NCBI RefSeq assembly: GCF_024832785.1
Contig: NZ_CP116615.1
Location: forward strand, 2,294,001 to 2,358,000
Origin: Fontisphaera persica
GTDB taxonomy: Bacteria > Verrucomicrobiota > Verrucomicrobiia > Limisphaerales > Fontisphaeraceae
DNA length: 64,000 bases
Reading direction: 5' to 3'
This document shows, piece after piece, positions 26,478-35,706 of the stretch. A program made the position numbers and the translations under genes. The notes below the pieces were generated by a model. It did not search any database, was not told where the DNA came from, and worked only from the letters and a program-made list of their open reading frames with translations. How positions within the stretch are numbered: the stretch's first letter is position 1; every line of letters starts with the position of its first letter.

Positions 26478-27848
26478 CTATTCCCTTTTCGCCTCTGGGG
26501 CAGCCAGCGGCGGCTCAGCAATGTAGATATCCTCCCGCAGACGCAACTGGGCCAGAATCATTTCCACCGTGCGATCCACCGCCCCCAGATTTTCCTGCAC
26601 CACCCGGTAAGCCTGCCGGCCCATCTCCAACCGCCGGGCTTCGTCACTCAACAAACCGGCCACCGCCTCCTCAAGCTCCGCCGCATGAGCGACTTGTAAT
26701 GCGCCGCCCCGGCTGACCAGGAGCCGCGATACCGCCTCGAAGTTCTGCATGTTCGGCCCGAAAATGACCGGCCGCGCCAAAGCCGCTGGCTCCAGGGGAT
26801 TCTGGCCCCCTTCGGCCGCCAGGCTTTTGCCCACAAATACCACATCGGCATGGGCATAGAAATGGCGCAATTCACCCGTGGTATTGACCAGCAGGCAATC
26901 CACCTCCCCCGTCTCCAATTGGGTGGTGGCCGTGATTTGATTGCGGAAAAACACGCGCGCCCCCGCCGCCACCATGTCCTCCATGGCCTCCTTAGCCCGT
27001 TCAAAATGCCGGGGCACGACAACCAGGAATAAATCCGGAAATCGCTGCCGCAGACGGAGAAACACTTCAGTCACGATTTTTTCCTCGCCCGGATGCGTGC
27101 TGCCGGCCACCCAGATTTTGGCGTTGGTCGGCACCGCCAACTGGCGCAACATGCCAGGCACATCCAGCACTTTACGCTCCTCCAACTGGGCGGCGTCATA
27201 CTTTAAGTTGCCCACGACGTGCACGGCCTCCGGACGGCAGCCCAGGCGCCGCAATTTCTCCGCGTCCGCCTCATTTTGGCATCCCACGCCGGCAAATCCG
27301 GCAAACAACGGCCGAAACAAGCCGCCCAGCAGCCGGTACCCGCGATACGAACGGGCTGAAAGACGGGCATTGACGAGAAACACGGGGATGTTAAGGCGAT
27401 GGAGGCGAGTTAAAAAATTGGGCCAGATTTCCGCCTCCACCAGCACCACCGCCACGGGATGCAGCACGGCAATGGCCTTGCGCACGTATTTGGGAAAATC
27501 AATGGGGTAATACACCTTGAGAATGTGGGACGGCAACCTTTTCTCCAATTCCCCCATGCCGGTGGTGGTGGTGGTGGAGACAACGATTTTGACATTGGGC
27601 AGGCGGGGTTCCAGCGCACGGATTAACTGCGTGCAGAGATTCACCTCACCCACACTTACGGCGTGCAGCCACAAGACCTGGCGGTTGGTCACGGCATGAC
27701 GCACATGGCCACCGTATCGCGCAAAACGCTGGCCAAAGCCCCGGCGCCAATTTCCCCTCCTCCACAATTTAAGAAAATACCAGGGCGCACTAAGGATAAA
27801 GCCCAGTGTAAACAGCAGGTTATAAATCCAATGCCACACTGGCTCCAT
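26478..27848 (-). CDS. waaA: 3-deoxy-D-manno-octulosonic acid (Kdo) transferase
   Basis: A 456-residue GT30 enzyme that adds Kdo from CMP-Kdo to lipid A precursor at the inner membrane, which implies an LPS-bearing outer membrane. An N-terminal membrane anchor (WIYNLLFTLGFILSAPWYF) is followed by WLHAVSVGEV, with the Glu that is the probable catalytic base, STTTTTGM, VEAEIWPNFL, NARLSARS, CQNEADAEKLRRLG, GNLKYD, WVAGSTHPGEE and, in the C-terminal half, KSLAAEGGQNPLEPAA. The frame is open to 27968; the ATG at 27848 places the anchor right at the N-terminus as in homologues. Confidence 0.94.
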   Translation of the reverse strand: MEPVWHWIYNLLFTLGFILSAPWYFLKLWRRGNWRRGFGQRFARYGGHVRHAVTNRQVLWLHAVSVGEVNLCTQLIRALEPRLPNVKIVVSTTTTTGMGELEKRLPSHILKVYYPIDFPKYVRKAIAVLHPVAVVLVEAEIWPNFLTRLHRLNIPVFLVNARLSARSYRGYRLLGGLFRPLFAGFAGVGCQNEADAEKLRRLGCRPEAVHVVGNLKYDAAQLEERKVLDVPGMLRQLAVPTNAKIWVAGSTHPGEEKIVTEVFLRLRQRFPDLFLVVVPRHFERAKEAMEDMVAAGARVFFRNQITATTQLETGEVDCLLVNTTGELRHFYAHADVVFVGKSLAAEGGQNPLEPAALARPVIFGPNMQNFEAVSRLLVSRGGALQVAHAAELEEAVAGLLSDEARRLEMGRQAYRVVQENLGAVDRTVEMILAQLRLREDIYIAEPPLAAPEAKRE

Positions 27849-28070
27849 AAAACTGAAAACTGCCCGCAACTCAAGTCCAAAAGACCGAACCAGGTCTCCC
27901 TCCATGCCGTCGCAGGAGGGTGGGCCTGGCATAAACGCAAAACCAACCCATCCGCAGCCCTTGCCCATCTCACGCCTTTCAGTTGCTGCCGCCCGCCGCA
28001 GCAGACACGGTCAATCACTCCGCATTTTTCTGCTTGAGCGATTTATAAGAAATCGGCATAAAGCAACGCC

Positions 28071-31033: not shown

Positions 31034-31420
31034 TCATCGCAGCCAGTAAAGCAACGCGATTTGCAGGCCCGTTAAAACCGCCAGCAATCCCCAGGTGAAC
31101 CACTCCCTCATCCTCAAGGAGCGCAACGGCGCCGGAGCCAGCCAGAAACGCAATTTCAGTCCGCCCAGTTCCAGCAAGTCACCGTTGCGCAGGCGCGCCG
31201 CCCGCGCCGGTGCGCCGTTGATGACCAAAGGCGCTTCCGCCAGGGCGGTCACCCAAATCCCCTCATCCGCCAGCAACTCAAACCGCAAATGCTCGTCCCA
31301 GACGCCCGGTTCCTCCGCGCGCAAATCAGCCCCCGCCTTGCGTCCAACGCCAAAAGGCAAGCGGCGGGCCGTTTGCACAGTGCCCGCCGCCCTGCCGGAT
31401 AAAATTTGCAACTGGAACAT
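31034..31420 (-). CDS. FHA-domain protein with C-terminal membrane anchor
   Basis: A 128-residue protein: an FHA-like beta-sandwich (about 1-98) with RLPFGVGRKAGADLR at the expected first phospho-peptide loop, WDEHLRFEL, INGAPARAARLRNGDLLELGGLKLRF, and one C-terminal membrane helix (about 106-126). FHA domains bind phosphothreonine peptides. The GRxxxxD-type Gly-Arg is present (VGRKAGAD), while the usual SRxH element appears as DEHLRF, so phosphopeptide binding is plausible but not proven. It begins 5 bases after the Wza-like gene and is the last gene of the exopolysaccharide operon, which points to a regulatory or scaffold role in the export complex. Confidence 0.75.
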   Translation of the reverse strand: MFQLQILSGRAAGTVQTARRLPFGVGRKAGADLRAEEPGVWDEHLRFELLADEGIWVTALAEAPLVINGAPARAARLRNGDLLELGGLKLRFWLAPAPLRSLRMREWFTWGLLAVLTGLQIALLYWLR

Positions 31421-31425
31421 GCGCC

Positions 31426-32034
31426 TTACAGCCAGCGCCGCGGCACATTGATGGTGTCGCCCGGAAAGACCGGCAAATCCAGCGCCGGATTTTTTTCCGC
31501 CTTCTCACAATCCACCTTCTCGGTGGAGCCGTCCTGGCGGGAAATGGTGACACTGTCTTTCTTGCTGAACTCCGTGAAGCCGCCCGCCGTGGCAATGGCG
31601 CGGGTGACCGTCAAGTCTCCGACGTAAGGATAGCGGCCGGGCAGCTTGACGAACCCATAGACGAAGAAGAACCGGTTCTCCGTGGACATTACAATCACGC
31701 TCAGGTGTTTGTAATACTTCTGCTCCAGATACGCGGTTCGGATTTCATTTTCCAGTTGGGACGGCGTTTTGCGCGCCGCTTGCACCTTGTTGATGTATGG
31801 CAACGTGATGGTGCCGTCCTCCTTGATGCGCTGCTCGAACGGCGGCTTGCCCCGCCATTCGGGATGTTCCAGGGAGATTTTGATGATGTCCCCCACCTGG
31901 AGCAACTGGCTGCTCACCGTATTGGTGGGTTCGGAAGCCGTCACCCGCGTTTGCAGCCCACCCAGGGCCAGAAAAACCAAACAAGCCAGTCCCCAACCCG
32001 CCATCCACTGTGCCAGAATAGAATGCCGCTTCAT
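31426..32034 (-). CDS. Wza-like polysaccharide export protein (Poly_export/SLBB)
   Basis: A 202-residue exported protein. Signal sequence about 1-34, then a Poly_export domain (LLQVGDIIKISLEHPEW, DGTITLPYINKVQA) and one SLBB domain (FFFVYGFVKLPGRYPY, TVTRAIATAGGFTEFSKKDSV, VFPGDTINVPRRW). Unlike E. coli Wza it has no lipobox I can see and lacks the long C-terminal helix that forms the outer-membrane barrel, so the separate outer-membrane barrel gene upstream may provide that pore. It lies between the tyrosine kinase (20-base gap) and the FHA protein (5-base gap). Confidence 0.87.
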   Translation of the reverse strand: MKRHSILAQWMAGWGLACLVFLALGGLQTRVTASEPTNTVSSQLLQVGDIIKISLEHPEWRGKPPFEQRIKEDGTITLPYINKVQAARKTPSQLENEIRTAYLEQKYYKHLSVIVMSTENRFFFVYGFVKLPGRYPYVGDLTVTRAIATAGGFTEFSKKDSVTISRQDGSTEKVDCEKAEKNPALDLPVFPGDTINVPRRWL

Positions 32035-32054
32035 ACAGCTCGCACAACCAACAT

Positions 32055-34244
32055 TTAGTATTTTTGTTTGATTTCCACCTCGGACGAAGCCGGGCTGGCC
32101 TCCCCGCCGCTGCGCTTGCTCTTGCGGCGGCCGGAGGATTTATCATCGCTGTCCTTGTAATAAGACTCTTCGAAGTAACCGCTGTAGTAATAATAATAAG
32201 AGTCGGAGGACATATTGATGTTGTTGAGCACAATGCCCATGAGGTTGCCGCCCACCTTTTCAATCATCTGCTTGGCGCGGATGGTCATGGGCTGCGGGTA
32301 GCGGCGGTACTGAATAATTTGCAGCGTCATGTCCACCTCGCTGGCAAGGATGGAAGCATCGCTGATGCCCATGATGGGCGGTGAATCAAAGAACACAAAA
32401 TCATAACGCCGCTTCAATTCGGCAATCATCTCCTTCATGGCGGGAGAATTCAAAATGCCCATCGCGCTGCTCGGCAGTTTGCCGCTGGGCATGAAATCCA
32501 GCGTGGCAAGACTGGTGGTTTGAATCACCTCGGGCAGGCTGTTTTGTTTGAGCAGGAAGTTGGTCAAGCCCACGCTGTTGGAAACGCCCAGCCGCTTGTG
32601 GAGGCTGGGACGGCGCAGGTCCGAGTCCACCAGCAGCACCCGGCTGCCGCTCTGTGCGAAGACCACCGCCAGGTTAAACAGCGTGGTGGATTTGCCTTCG
32701 CCCGCGCCGGCGCTGACCACCGTGAGCGTATTCCAGTGGTCATCCTTGCGGGAGAACAACAAATTGGTGCGTAATACTCGATAGGCCTCCGCATGGGGGC
32801 TCTCCGGCCCCTCCTCCAACAAGTTGCCCACATTTTGCGGGATAACCCCAAGCACTGGCGCCTGCAGCGCGCGCTCCACATCGTCAATGGTCTTCACGCT
32901 GGTATCCAGGTACTCCACAAAGAACGCCAGCCCGATGCCCAGCACCAGCCCCGCCACCACCCCCAGGCTGATGTTCAGGATTTTTTTGGGCCGCACCGGG
33001 CGCAAAATCGGCTCGGCCTGGTCCACCATCTTGACCACGGAGTATTGAATTTTCTGGTTGTCCAGAATGGCGGCCTGGATGCGCATGGCCAATGCGTTTT
33101 TCACCGAGCGCGCGGTCTCCAATTCCTCCTTGGCGGAATAATACTCCATCAAACGAGACCCCGCCTCGCGGTCTTTTTTCTTGGCCTCATCCAGGCGGTG
33201 GGCCAGTTCCTCCACCCCCGCCTTGCTTTTCTCCACCACCGCCCGGAGTCCTTCCAGGATGCCGGTCAGCCGCTCGTCCACCAGCCGCTCCTGGGTGTTG
33301 AGCAATTGCACCAGGCGCTTGTATTCCGGATGCGCTTCCCCGTAGTCTTCGGCTGTCAGCGCCAGTTGCTGCTCCGTCTTGTTCAAGTCCTCCAGCAGCG
33401 TCATCAGAATGGTGTCAGGCTGCACGGTGACCAGCGCCCGTTTCAATTCCGTGCGCGTCATTTTGGCCAGCTTGGTGTACTGCGCATTCAGCTCGACATA
33501 ACGCGCCTGTGCATCCACATGCACCGCGTCGAGCCGGCGGATGGTTTCGGAATCCAAGGTGCCATAAACGCGCCCGCTGTAGGGATCAATGTCATTGATC
33601 TCCAGGTTTTTCCGTAAATGCACCACATTCGATTCCCGCGCGGAGTATTCCTGCTCCTTGAGTTTCAGTTCATCCTGCAAGGTTTGAATGCCCTTTTCCA
33701 CCAGGGTCAAACGGGTGCGCTGCCGGTATTCGCGGTACGCCTCCGCGATGGCGTTGGCAATTTCAGCCGCCTCTTCCGGTTTCTGGCTTTCCACCCGAAT
33801 TTCAATGATGGTGGTATTGCGATAAAGATTCAAATCCACCATCCGCCGCAGGAGCAACCGGGTCTCGTCCATGCGGTAGGGCACCTGCATGCCATCCCGC
33901 TCCGCAAAGCGCTCATTCAACCGGAGCTTGTTGATAACCGCGTCCAGCACCGTGCCGGATTTGATGATCTCAAACTGGGTTTGCATCCAGTAGGGATCAA
34001 AGGTGGCCAGTATGGGCCGCTCACGGAATCCCTCCACGTCCGGCATGTCTTTTTCCACCTCAATGCGGGCGACGCTTTCGTAGGTGGGGGGAAGAAACTG
34101 GGTGACCAGGGTGGTGGTCAGCACCACCAGCATGAATACCGTTAAAATGACGGTCTTCCGCACCCGGATGATACGCCAGTAATCCAGGAAGTGCAGCTTC
34201 GTTTCTGCCGGCGGCGCGCCGAAATTTTTCGTGCTGTCCATCAT
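32055..34244 (-). CDS. Polysaccharide co-polymerase / BY-family tyrosine autokinase (Wzc/ExoP-like)
   Basis: A 729-residue inner-membrane protein controlling exopolysaccharide chain length and export. Wzz domain with membrane helix near residues 33-55, long periplasmic coiled coil (about 190-420) ending in a GNVR-like part, second helix near 435-455 (LGVVAGLVLGIGLAFFVEYLD), then the cytoplasmic kinase: Walker A GAGEGKSTT (about 511-519), Walker A' VLLVDSDLRRP, Walker B DFVFFDSPP. The tail has SSDSYYYYYSGYFEESYY (from about 675), eight tyrosines for autophosphorylation, then a basic Lys/Arg stretch and a final Tyr. Two adjacent ATG codons (34244 and 34241) compete as start; no ribosome site precedes them, and a terminator-like U-tract directly abuts the first. 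Confidence 0.93.
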   Translation of the reverse strand: MMDSTKNFGAPPAETKLHFLDYWRIIRVRKTVILTVFMLVVLTTTLVTQFLPPTYESVARIEVEKDMPDVEGFRERPILATFDPYWMQTQFEIIKSGTVLDAVINKLRLNERFAERDGMQVPYRMDETRLLLRRMVDLNLYRNTTIIEIRVESQKPEEAAEIANAIAEAYREYRQRTRLTLVEKGIQTLQDELKLKEQEYSARESNVVHLRKNLEINDIDPYSGRVYGTLDSETIRRLDAVHVDAQARYVELNAQYTKLAKMTRTELKRALVTVQPDTILMTLLEDLNKTEQQLALTAEDYGEAHPEYKRLVQLLNTQERLVDERLTGILEGLRAVVEKSKAGVEELAHRLDEAKKKDREAGSRLMEYYSAKEELETARSVKNALAMRIQAAILDNQKIQYSVVKMVDQAEPILRPVRPKKILNISLGVVAGLVLGIGLAFFVEYLDTSVKTIDDVERALQAPVLGVIPQNVGNLLEEGPESPHAEAYRVLRTNLLFSRKDDHWNTLTVVSAGAGEGKSTTLFNLAVVFAQSGSRVLLVDSDLRRPSLHKRLGVSNSVGLTNFLLKQNSLPEVIQTTSLATLDFMPSGKLPSSAMGILNSPAMKEMIAELKRRYDFVFFDSPPIMGISDASILASEVDMTLQIIQYRRYPQPMTIRAKQMIEKVGGNLMGIVLNNINMSSDSYYYYYSGYFEESYYKDSDDKSSGRRKSKRSGGEASPASSEVEIKQKY

Positions 34245-34281
34245 AAAAAAAGGAGGCTAGATATTTTGGGTCCAGCCTCCT
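34245..34281 (-). terminator. Terminator-like hairpin abutting the kinase start codon
   Basis: On the minus strand an 8-bp stem (AGGAGGCT at 34274-34281 pairing with AGCCTCCT at 34251-34258, loop of 15 bases) is followed by a T-run (34245-34251) that ends exactly at the ATG of the tyrosine kinase. It could terminate the outer-membrane barrel transcript, attenuate the downstream genes, or act at the translational level, since AGGAGG lies in the 5' arm. Confidence 0.7.
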
Positions 34282-34339
34282 CCCAAGTTGTCGTTGGTAA
34301 TCCTTTGTCGCGCGATTGGATACACCGCGGCCGACAGGC

Positions 34340-35608
34340 TTAATACGTGGCCTTCAGGCCGATGTACACAAAGTTGCGATGAAAATCGCGCTCCGTGCCC
34401 GCCGGCCAGCCGTAATCCTTCAGCCAGTCAAACGAGTACCCCGCCTCGGCCGCCAGGAACGGATTAATCTTGTAGCTGGCGCCCAAATCCACGCTCAGGT
34501 AACCTTCATCCTGGCTGTTCACCGCGCCCCCGCGGAAAGTGCCATACTGGTACTGCGCGCCCGCGTTGAGCGTGAGGCGGCTGATGGTGTGGCTCACCCG
34601 CGCATAGAAGAAGTGCGCCAGTTGGTCCACCGTCAGGTTCAGCGGCGCCATGCCGGTGTAGCCAATCAAATCGGTGGTCATCCGCTGCAACTTGTATCCC
34701 AACTGAATGGTGCTGGCTTCCGCAAAGCGGTAGCTTGCCGACACATCAAAGTAGGGACTGGTGCGGTTGCTCTGGTTGTTGCGGTAGGTCACCGTCATCG
34801 CGCCCGCGCGCGCGCTGAGCGTCAGCCGCTCCGAAGCGCTGTAATCCACGCCGGCAAAGTAGTAATGCGAGCGGGTGTCACGCAGCTTGGGCGACAGATA
34901 AACAGCCCCCGTCGGGTCCAAAGTGTCCTTGCTGGTGTGGCCGGTGTACATGTACTGGTAACCCAGCAAGCCGTCGGTGCGCTCCAACATGTTGATCCAG
35001 CGCACGCCCACCTTGGCCAGGTGCTCATGCCGATCCAAGATGGCCGAGTAGCTGCCGTTGCCCTTCTCGCGGTAATCGTACACCGTGAAGGAGTAACCCG
35101 GTTCAAAGGCCACGCTCTCGGTCAGCCGCGCCCGGAAATCGGCGCCCGCGGTATTGCGCAGGTTGCTGCCACGCACGCGCAGGGTCTGCACCGGCTGGGC
35201 CGGGTTGAGCAGGGAAGGCTCCTGCGCCACCACAAAATCATCATACAGCGTCATCCGGAAGCGCTCGCTGAAGTCGTGGTTCAGCATCACATTGGCCAGA
35301 TGGGAGTAGTCCAGCTCGTTGTTGATGCGGTCCTCGTAGTAGCGCATGCCAAACTTGTACGAAGCATACAGTTGGGTCATCTCCTTGATGATATGACCCC
35401 GCACCGACGGGCTCACCTCCAGCCCGAAGGAATCCCGGCGCAAGCCGCTCCGCAGCGTCGCATAGTTATCATCGTAAAACCCACGCACCGAGGCCGAAAC
35501 ACTCCACGGTTTGGCAGTTTCCTGCGGCAGAAGTGTTGGCGGCGTCGCGGCATTCATGCTGGCAGCGCCCAGGGCGGCCATCCCGGCGGTTGCAAAAAGT
35601 TTTTTCAT
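34340..35608 (-). CDS. Outer-membrane beta-barrel protein (exopolysaccharide operon)
   Basis: A 422-residue exported barrel: signal peptide MKKLFATAGMAALGAASMNA, then about 16 to 18 alternating amphipathic strands (SVSASVRGFYDDNYA, LYASYKFGMRYYED, FRMTLYDDFVV and similar) ending in FVYIGLKATY, a typical aromatic outer-membrane C-terminus. It matches the 'putative beta-barrel porin 2' type found with exopolysaccharide clusters. The ATG at 35608 starts the signal peptide; the frame extends upstream without need. It is the first gene behind a strong promoter, and the next gene is the tyrosine kinase, so it probably forms the outer-membrane exit for the polymer. Confidence 0.85.
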   Translation of the reverse strand: MKKLFATAGMAALGAASMNAATPPTLLPQETAKPWSVSASVRGFYDDNYATLRSGLRRDSFGLEVSPSVRGHIIKEMTQLYASYKFGMRYYEDRINNELDYSHLANVMLNHDFSERFRMTLYDDFVVAQEPSLLNPAQPVQTLRVRGSNLRNTAGADFRARLTESVAFEPGYSFTVYDYREKGNGSYSAILDRHEHLAKVGVRWINMLERTDGLLGYQYMYTGHTSKDTLDPTGAVYLSPKLRDTRSHYYFAGVDYSASERLTLSARAGAMTVTYRNNQSNRTSPYFDVSASYRFAEASTIQLGYKLQRMTTDLIGYTGMAPLNLTVDQLAHFFYARVSHTISRLTLNAGAQYQYGTFRGGAVNSQDEGYLSVDLGASYKINPFLAAEAGYSFDWLKDYGWPAGTERDFHRNFVYIGLKATY

Positions 35609-35676
35609 AGCATTGTTTGTTTTTACCTGCGATGACTTGGGGCTCCCCAAAGCCAACTCATGCGATACTTGGGTTT

Positions 35677-35706
35677 CTTATAGCCAGCCCCGCAAGTCTT
35701 TGTCAA
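35677..35706 (-). promoter_or_regulatory. Strong sigma70 promoter of the exopolysaccharide operon
   Basis: On the minus strand TTGACA (35701-35706), an 18-base spacer and TATAAG (35677-35682). Predicted start near 35670, leaving a leader of about 60 bases before the barrel gene. This is the best consensus promoter in the window. Confidence 0.75.

Follow-up and report, generated by a model that had tools for sequence, protein, structure and literature searches.

What does a small FHA-domain membrane protein do at the end of an operon whose other genes encode a polysaccharide exporter? We addressed this question at a locus of Fontisphaera persica, within a stretch of 64,000 nucleotides (the window). 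Read 5' to 3' on the minus strand (window positions 35706-31034), the locus comprises a near-consensus promoter, an outer-membrane barrel, a BY-kinase, a short OPX protein and an FHA protein with a membrane helix (FHA-TM). The original prediction had proposed this gene order, a strong promoter, and gaps of 20 nt between the kinase and OPX genes and 5 nt between the OPX and FHA-TM genes, all of which agreed with the open reading frame coordinates, the family searches and the promoter match. The features are as follows:

35677..35706, minus strand: sigma-70-like promoter, TTGACA-18-TATAAG (pattern match; consensus only)
34340..35608, minus strand: predicted outer-membrane 18-stranded beta-barrel, 422 aa (BBP2_2), putative partner of the short OPX protein (PF10082, AlphaFold2, Foldseek)
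32055..34244, minus strand: Wzc-type co-polymerase / BY-kinase (PCP-2a), 729 aa (TIGR01007, Wzz, GNVR)
31426..32034, minus strand: short OPX protein (class 3 / D1D2), 202 aa (PF02563, PF10531)
31034..31420, minus strand: FHA-like protein with a C-terminal membrane helix, 128 aa (AlphaFold2, fold match, profile)
31298..31300, minus strand: codon of Trp41 in the GVW[DE]xH signature (gapless alignment to SRRH of FhaA/GarA)

The promoter sits 68 nt 5' of the barrel start codon, and its pattern is expected 0.01 times by chance in 64 kb; the generic promoter scan demands a final T, hence it gave no match to TATAAG. The operon is flanked by housekeeping genes, gcvP upstream and argG downstream, and no glycosyltransferase, flippase or polymerase gene adjoins the four-gene unit. 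A gene that resembles a KDO transferase in sequence (waaA) is located at 26478-27968, about 3 kb downstream of the operon and past argG. The four-gene arrangement is not due to chance, because it recurs in essentially every testable relative. Our answer, which we hold with moderate confidence, is that the FHA-TM protein acts as an inner-membrane adaptor independently of phosphate; it would usually serve the exporter but be able to work without the kinase.

The first three genes encode an exporter of a known kind

Pfam and NCBIfam searches recognized Wzz, GNVR and polysaccharide tyrosine autokinase regions in the kinase, which scored 165 bits against TIGR01007, above the cut-off. As expected of a BY-kinase, a periplasmic Wzz/GNVR part is fused to a kinase with Walker A, A' and B motifs (AGAGEGKST, VDSDLRRP and FFDSPP in the window) and a tyrosine-rich tail. 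Walker A' was found in 91 of 94 relatives, Walker B in 86 and a tail with at least seven tyrosines in 93. Because nearly all relatives conserve the A' and B motifs and the tail, the kinase looks active as judged from its sequence.

The OPX protein consists of a signal sequence, a Poly_export domain and one SLBB domain (PF02563, PF10531 and PF22461 were the only matches), which is the domain content of class 3 (D1D2) OPX proteins. It stops at the SLBB domain, and neither Pfam nor the alignment revealed a Wza_C domain, a GfcC domain or an outer-membrane helix. The lipobox cysteine, present in 78 of 106 relatives, is missing from the window protein, which is therefore probably not a lipoprotein. 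The barrel matched PF10082 (BBP2_2) with 33 bits and was modeled by AlphaFold2 with 18 strands (pLDDT 83), providing the adjoining 18-stranded barrel that also characterizes class 3 OPX systems; its Foldseek matches include AlgE, in a search where barrels match one another broadly.

By analogy, the short OPX protein and the separate barrel would form a composite translocon that replaces the outer-membrane helix. The original prediction had suggested such a replacement, rightly in our view, and it is already published: D1D2-OPX/18-stranded barrel translocons are known from Myxococcus and found widely in Gram-negative bacteria (PMC9601211, PMC9603273). EpsY-EpsX and WzaX/S/B of Myxococcus xanthus share with our locus a short OPX protein lacking the outer-membrane helix, an AlgE-related 18-stranded barrel and a PCP. 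However, no FHA protein has been described there, and at our locus the kinase and PCP are fused and biosynthesis genes are not adjacent. The main texts of these two papers mention neither Verrucomicrobiota nor FHA, and the new part of the locus is the FHA gene rather than the barrel and short OPX protein. An assignment to XrtA/PEP-CTERM export was considered and rejected: TIGR03027 gave the OPX protein 62 bits against a cut-off of 180, and the response regulator and kinase frequently encoded upstream fell below the cut-offs of the PEP-CTERM models.

In the window genome (4.7 Mb, one contig), there are four matches of the OPX type, of which three exceed the family cut-off. Six Wzy_C proteins also score above their cut-off, and all are encoded away from the operon. 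Among these six, a protein of 627 aa encoded at 1.425 Mb is a relative (E 3e-34) of the Wzy-like protein encoded directly after OPX in sister orders. With no biosynthesis genes adjoining the exporter and the Wzy_C proteins elsewhere, the synthesis half of the polysaccharide pathway is probably unlinked to the exporter genes.

The FHA gene accompanies the OPX gene throughout the order

We detected the FHA gene in 261 of the 293 genomes of the order and in 147 of the 154 near-complete ones (95%), almost always in single copy. In a set of 58 genomes, made up of that of the window plus 57 relatives that mostly represent one family each, 54 carry it. At 52 of 55 loci examined, including that of the window, the gene follows OPX on the same strand; two of the remaining three are relocated (G009, G025) and one lies at a contig edge. 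The order is kept wherever the contig is long enough in 55 named loci (Limisphaerales, Pedosphaera, Verrucomicrobia subdivision 3), and the full succession of barrel, kinase, OPX and FHA genes recurs in nearly all relatives sampled at about one per family.

The coupling to OPX is especially tight. Outside the relocated clade described below, every one of the 106 distinct loci with enough sequence has OPX directly upstream of the FHA gene. With FHA starts set at the first position of the profile, 66 of these loci show a 1-nt overlap between the OPX stop and the FHA start, and in 96 the two lie within 9 nt. These results support the view of the FHA gene as a conserved partner of the export operon across the order. 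A comparison of the window genome with its congener indicated purifying selection on the FHA gene (dN/dS 0.13). Some apparent absences are contig ends, as in genome G346. Nevertheless, genome G383 has the trio and lacks the FHA gene at the operon, and the gene is therefore dispensable in places.

The flanks of the unit vary. GcvP and ArgG border it in the window genome and the congener, and about 20 other loci carry either purH on the downstream side or, upstream, a membrane protein together with a kinase/response-regulator pair (only clusters with recognizable proteins were counted as neighbor families). At 19 loci (for example L075, L066 and L304), the region upstream of the barrel encodes a multi-pass membrane protein of 580-680 aa, often preceded by an NtrC-type regulator and a histidine kinase. 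This membrane protein resembles GT39/PMT-type glycosyltransferases and has no NCBIfam match.

A clade that keeps the FHA gene without the kinase

Two families of the order (f8 and f24) retain the FHA gene in all 12 genomes tested and lack the BY-kinase in all 12; the barrel is absent from the four tested. Here the FHA gene has an lptG-like permease gene on one side and accA on the other; one search showed this at all 13 of its loci, and G009 and G025 share the arrangement. The encoded proteins retain the Trp signature, and dN/dS was about 0.1-0.2 in five of six pairs, with a value of 0.63 for one very close pair. Elsewhere, neither the FHA gene nor accA adjoins the lptG-like gene in the genomes tested. 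The lptG-like genes of both families form one clade (support 94) in an unrooted tree that is silent on which arrangement is older, so that one event suffices for the relocation; the FHA tree, built on 129 columns, resolves too poorly to root it.

Because the FHA-TM protein is kept in these families without any BY-kinase, it does not need the kinase, and the strict dedication to the kinase that had been proposed for it is not supported. In f8 and f24 at least, it serves something other than the exporter. Accordingly, one may ask whether the protein acts in a general envelope process, with lipopolysaccharide transport and lipid supply as examples. Its location in the exporter operon would then reflect a joint need for the two systems, and its main partner would be something other than the exporter. 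Its place between lptG-like and accA genes and its low dN/dS in genomes without kinase or barrel speak for this explanation, as does the wider retention of the FHA gene compared with the trio. We nonetheless regard it as somewhat unlikely, given that the lptG-like gene has no such neighbors elsewhere, that its single f8/f24 clade may reflect one relocation with a change of role, and that outside these families the FHA gene stays with OPX despite changing flanks. An adaptor that usually serves the exporter remains our preferred reading.

A predicted FHA fold without the phosphothreonine pocket

Taken alone, the window protein falls just below the Pfam FHA cut-off (19.9 versus 20.7 bits), and 47 of 49 relatives match PF00498 (FHA) with E <0.001. 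The best match of the family profile by sequence was the FhaA structure (E 6.6e-12). AlphaFold2 predicts an FHA beta-sandwich over residues 1-97 followed by a single helix at 103-127 (pLDDT 92.5), and the closest solved folds are GarA and OdhI (VIA Z 17 to the GarA FHA domain); weak or absent fold matches were never counted as evidence of absence. The membrane helix has conserved positions of its own, namely Glu106 (93/100), Trp110 (98/100) and Gln/Glu120 (99/100). Arg and Lys residues precede it and no signal peptide is present, which suggests that the FHA domain faces the cytoplasm.

The top Pfam match of the window protein was Yop-YscD_cpl (24.4 bits, under the cut-off of 33.2). YscD, EscD and PrgH of type III secretion similarly carry a cytoplasmic FHA fold on an inner-membrane protein of an export machine, and a purely structural role has been proposed for that FHA-like domain (PMC1084347). 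We rejected membership in this inner-membrane ring family, however, since the match is below the cut-off and our protein has no periplasmic, ring-building domains and ends directly after the helix.

We read the phosphothreonine pocket from the gapless profile alignment to FhaA and GarA. The arginine of the Gly-Arg pair (Arg27) is retained in 97 of 99 sequences. In contrast to GarA, OdhI and FhaA, with which the family shares this Gly-Arg and the His of SxxH (Z 17, about 23% identity), the phosphate-contacting Ser of SxxH is replaced by Trp41 in all 100 distinct sequences (Ser in none), and the backbone-contacting Asn of the S-x-N-G loop is found in none (Ala in 82). These actinobacterial proteins also differ from ours in that ours has a C-terminal membrane helix and no adjoining Ser/Thr kinase. 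Asp or Glu directly follows Trp41 in 93 of 100 sequences, and Trp, His and Gly positions are invariant across the family. Thus, two of the three residues defining the pocket (Arg, Ser, Asn) are gone in every sequence. The Fha protein of type VI secretion likewise dedicates an FHA domain to a secretion machine; it binds phosphothreonine through Arg30 and Ser46, and the Ser of SxxH, together with the Arg, is required for its function (PMC3953482), whereas the window protein has Trp at that Ser.

With Ser and Asn lost, canonical phosphothreonine reading appears unlikely, contrary to the original suggestion of a domain that recognizes phosphothreonine or the phosphorylated tail of the kinase. This loss and the retention of the gene after loss of the kinase in f8 and f24 together make a dedicated phospho-reader of the BY-kinase unlikely. 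Of the two properties on which the original prediction had staked itself, the conserved neighborhood is present and the canonical phosphopeptide pocket is absent.

Could the pocket instead have been remodeled, with Arg27 and Trp41 reading another phospho-mark such as the phosphotyrosine cluster of the kinase tail? The near-universal Arg27, the tyrosine-rich tail (93/94) and the location of both genes in one operon would fit, but we find this improbable: Ser and Asn are lost in all sequences, the acidic residue at position 42 is unfavorable for phosphate, and the protein is kept where the BY-kinase is absent. The lost pocket and the one trio genome without the FHA gene might hint at a passenger gene in decay, but this reading can be dismissed as highly improbable and is refuted by conservation, namely the presence of the gene in 95% of near-complete genomes, the invariant Trp, His and Gly, and purifying selection in two contexts.

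A possible origin in sister orders

Sister orders of the class encode a related barrel-kinase-OPX trio. At most of the loci inspected, a large membrane protein, Wzy-like where examined, comes after the trio, and no FHA gene was seen at the export operon in the inspected loci. In L303, L304, L305 and L308 the trio has no FHA gene behind OPX; what follows OPX in L303 and L308 is a large Wzy-like polymerase whose tail is TPR-like. FHA-TM proteins of these orders (L347-L358) are encoded at other sites, with Hanks-type kinases or response regulators as neighbors. They share the FHA domain and single membrane helix (profile E down to 7e-21), but carry a long proline-rich tail behind the helix, and several have a canonical pocket (GVSGRH...STNG). 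Elsewhere in the phylum, none of the best matches that were inspected carries the Trp signature. A plausible ancestor is a sister-order FHA-TM protein beside Ser/Thr kinases, which would have joined the OPX operon and lost its pocket.

A proposed adaptor of the exporter

We propose that the locus encodes the inner-to-outer-membrane part of a Wzx/Wzy-type polysaccharide exporter, in which the PCP-2a/BY-kinase would reside in the inner membrane, the short OPX protein would form a periplasmic ring and the 18-stranded barrel would serve as the outer-membrane pore. The fourth gene would add a small inner-membrane protein presenting its FHA domain to the cytoplasm. Given the loss of the Ser and Asn that hold phosphothreonine, we infer that it most likely binds its partner without phosphate, perhaps through the surface around the invariant Trp41 and through the membrane helix (Glu106, Trp110, Gln/Glu120). 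Such an adaptor would be made in step with OPX through the overlapping or nearly overlapping genes and may help assemble or place the inner-membrane part of the exporter. Since the FHA-TM protein persists in a clade that has no BY-kinase, something other than the kinase may be its partner. A search for coevolution between proteins by mean-field DCA (93 genomes, effective number 75) yielded top pairs that were gap or terminus artefacts and did not recover the FHA contacts, and its output was discarded. The retention of Arg27 counts against the adaptor, because a purely structural domain might not need this residue.

In the literature searched, which excluded most subscription journals, we found no paper tying FHA proteins to OPX/BY-kinase operons. 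A broader scenario, which we offer as unlikely but worth stating, is that a phosphate-independent, tail-anchored FHA adaptor is a standard fourth exporter subunit across the order, derived from a Ser/Thr-kinase-linked phospho-reader whose pocket the invariant Trp closed, and also serves an LptG-linked envelope machine in the clade that lost the exporter.

The family provides a clear case of an FHA domain that is maintained by selection after the residues that read phosphate were lost, and its possible ancestors retain these residues. It is an uncharacterized protein, translationally coupled to the OPX gene order-wide and open to deletion, and it bears on the poorly known cytoplasmic-side organization of the inner-membrane part of Wzc-type exporters.
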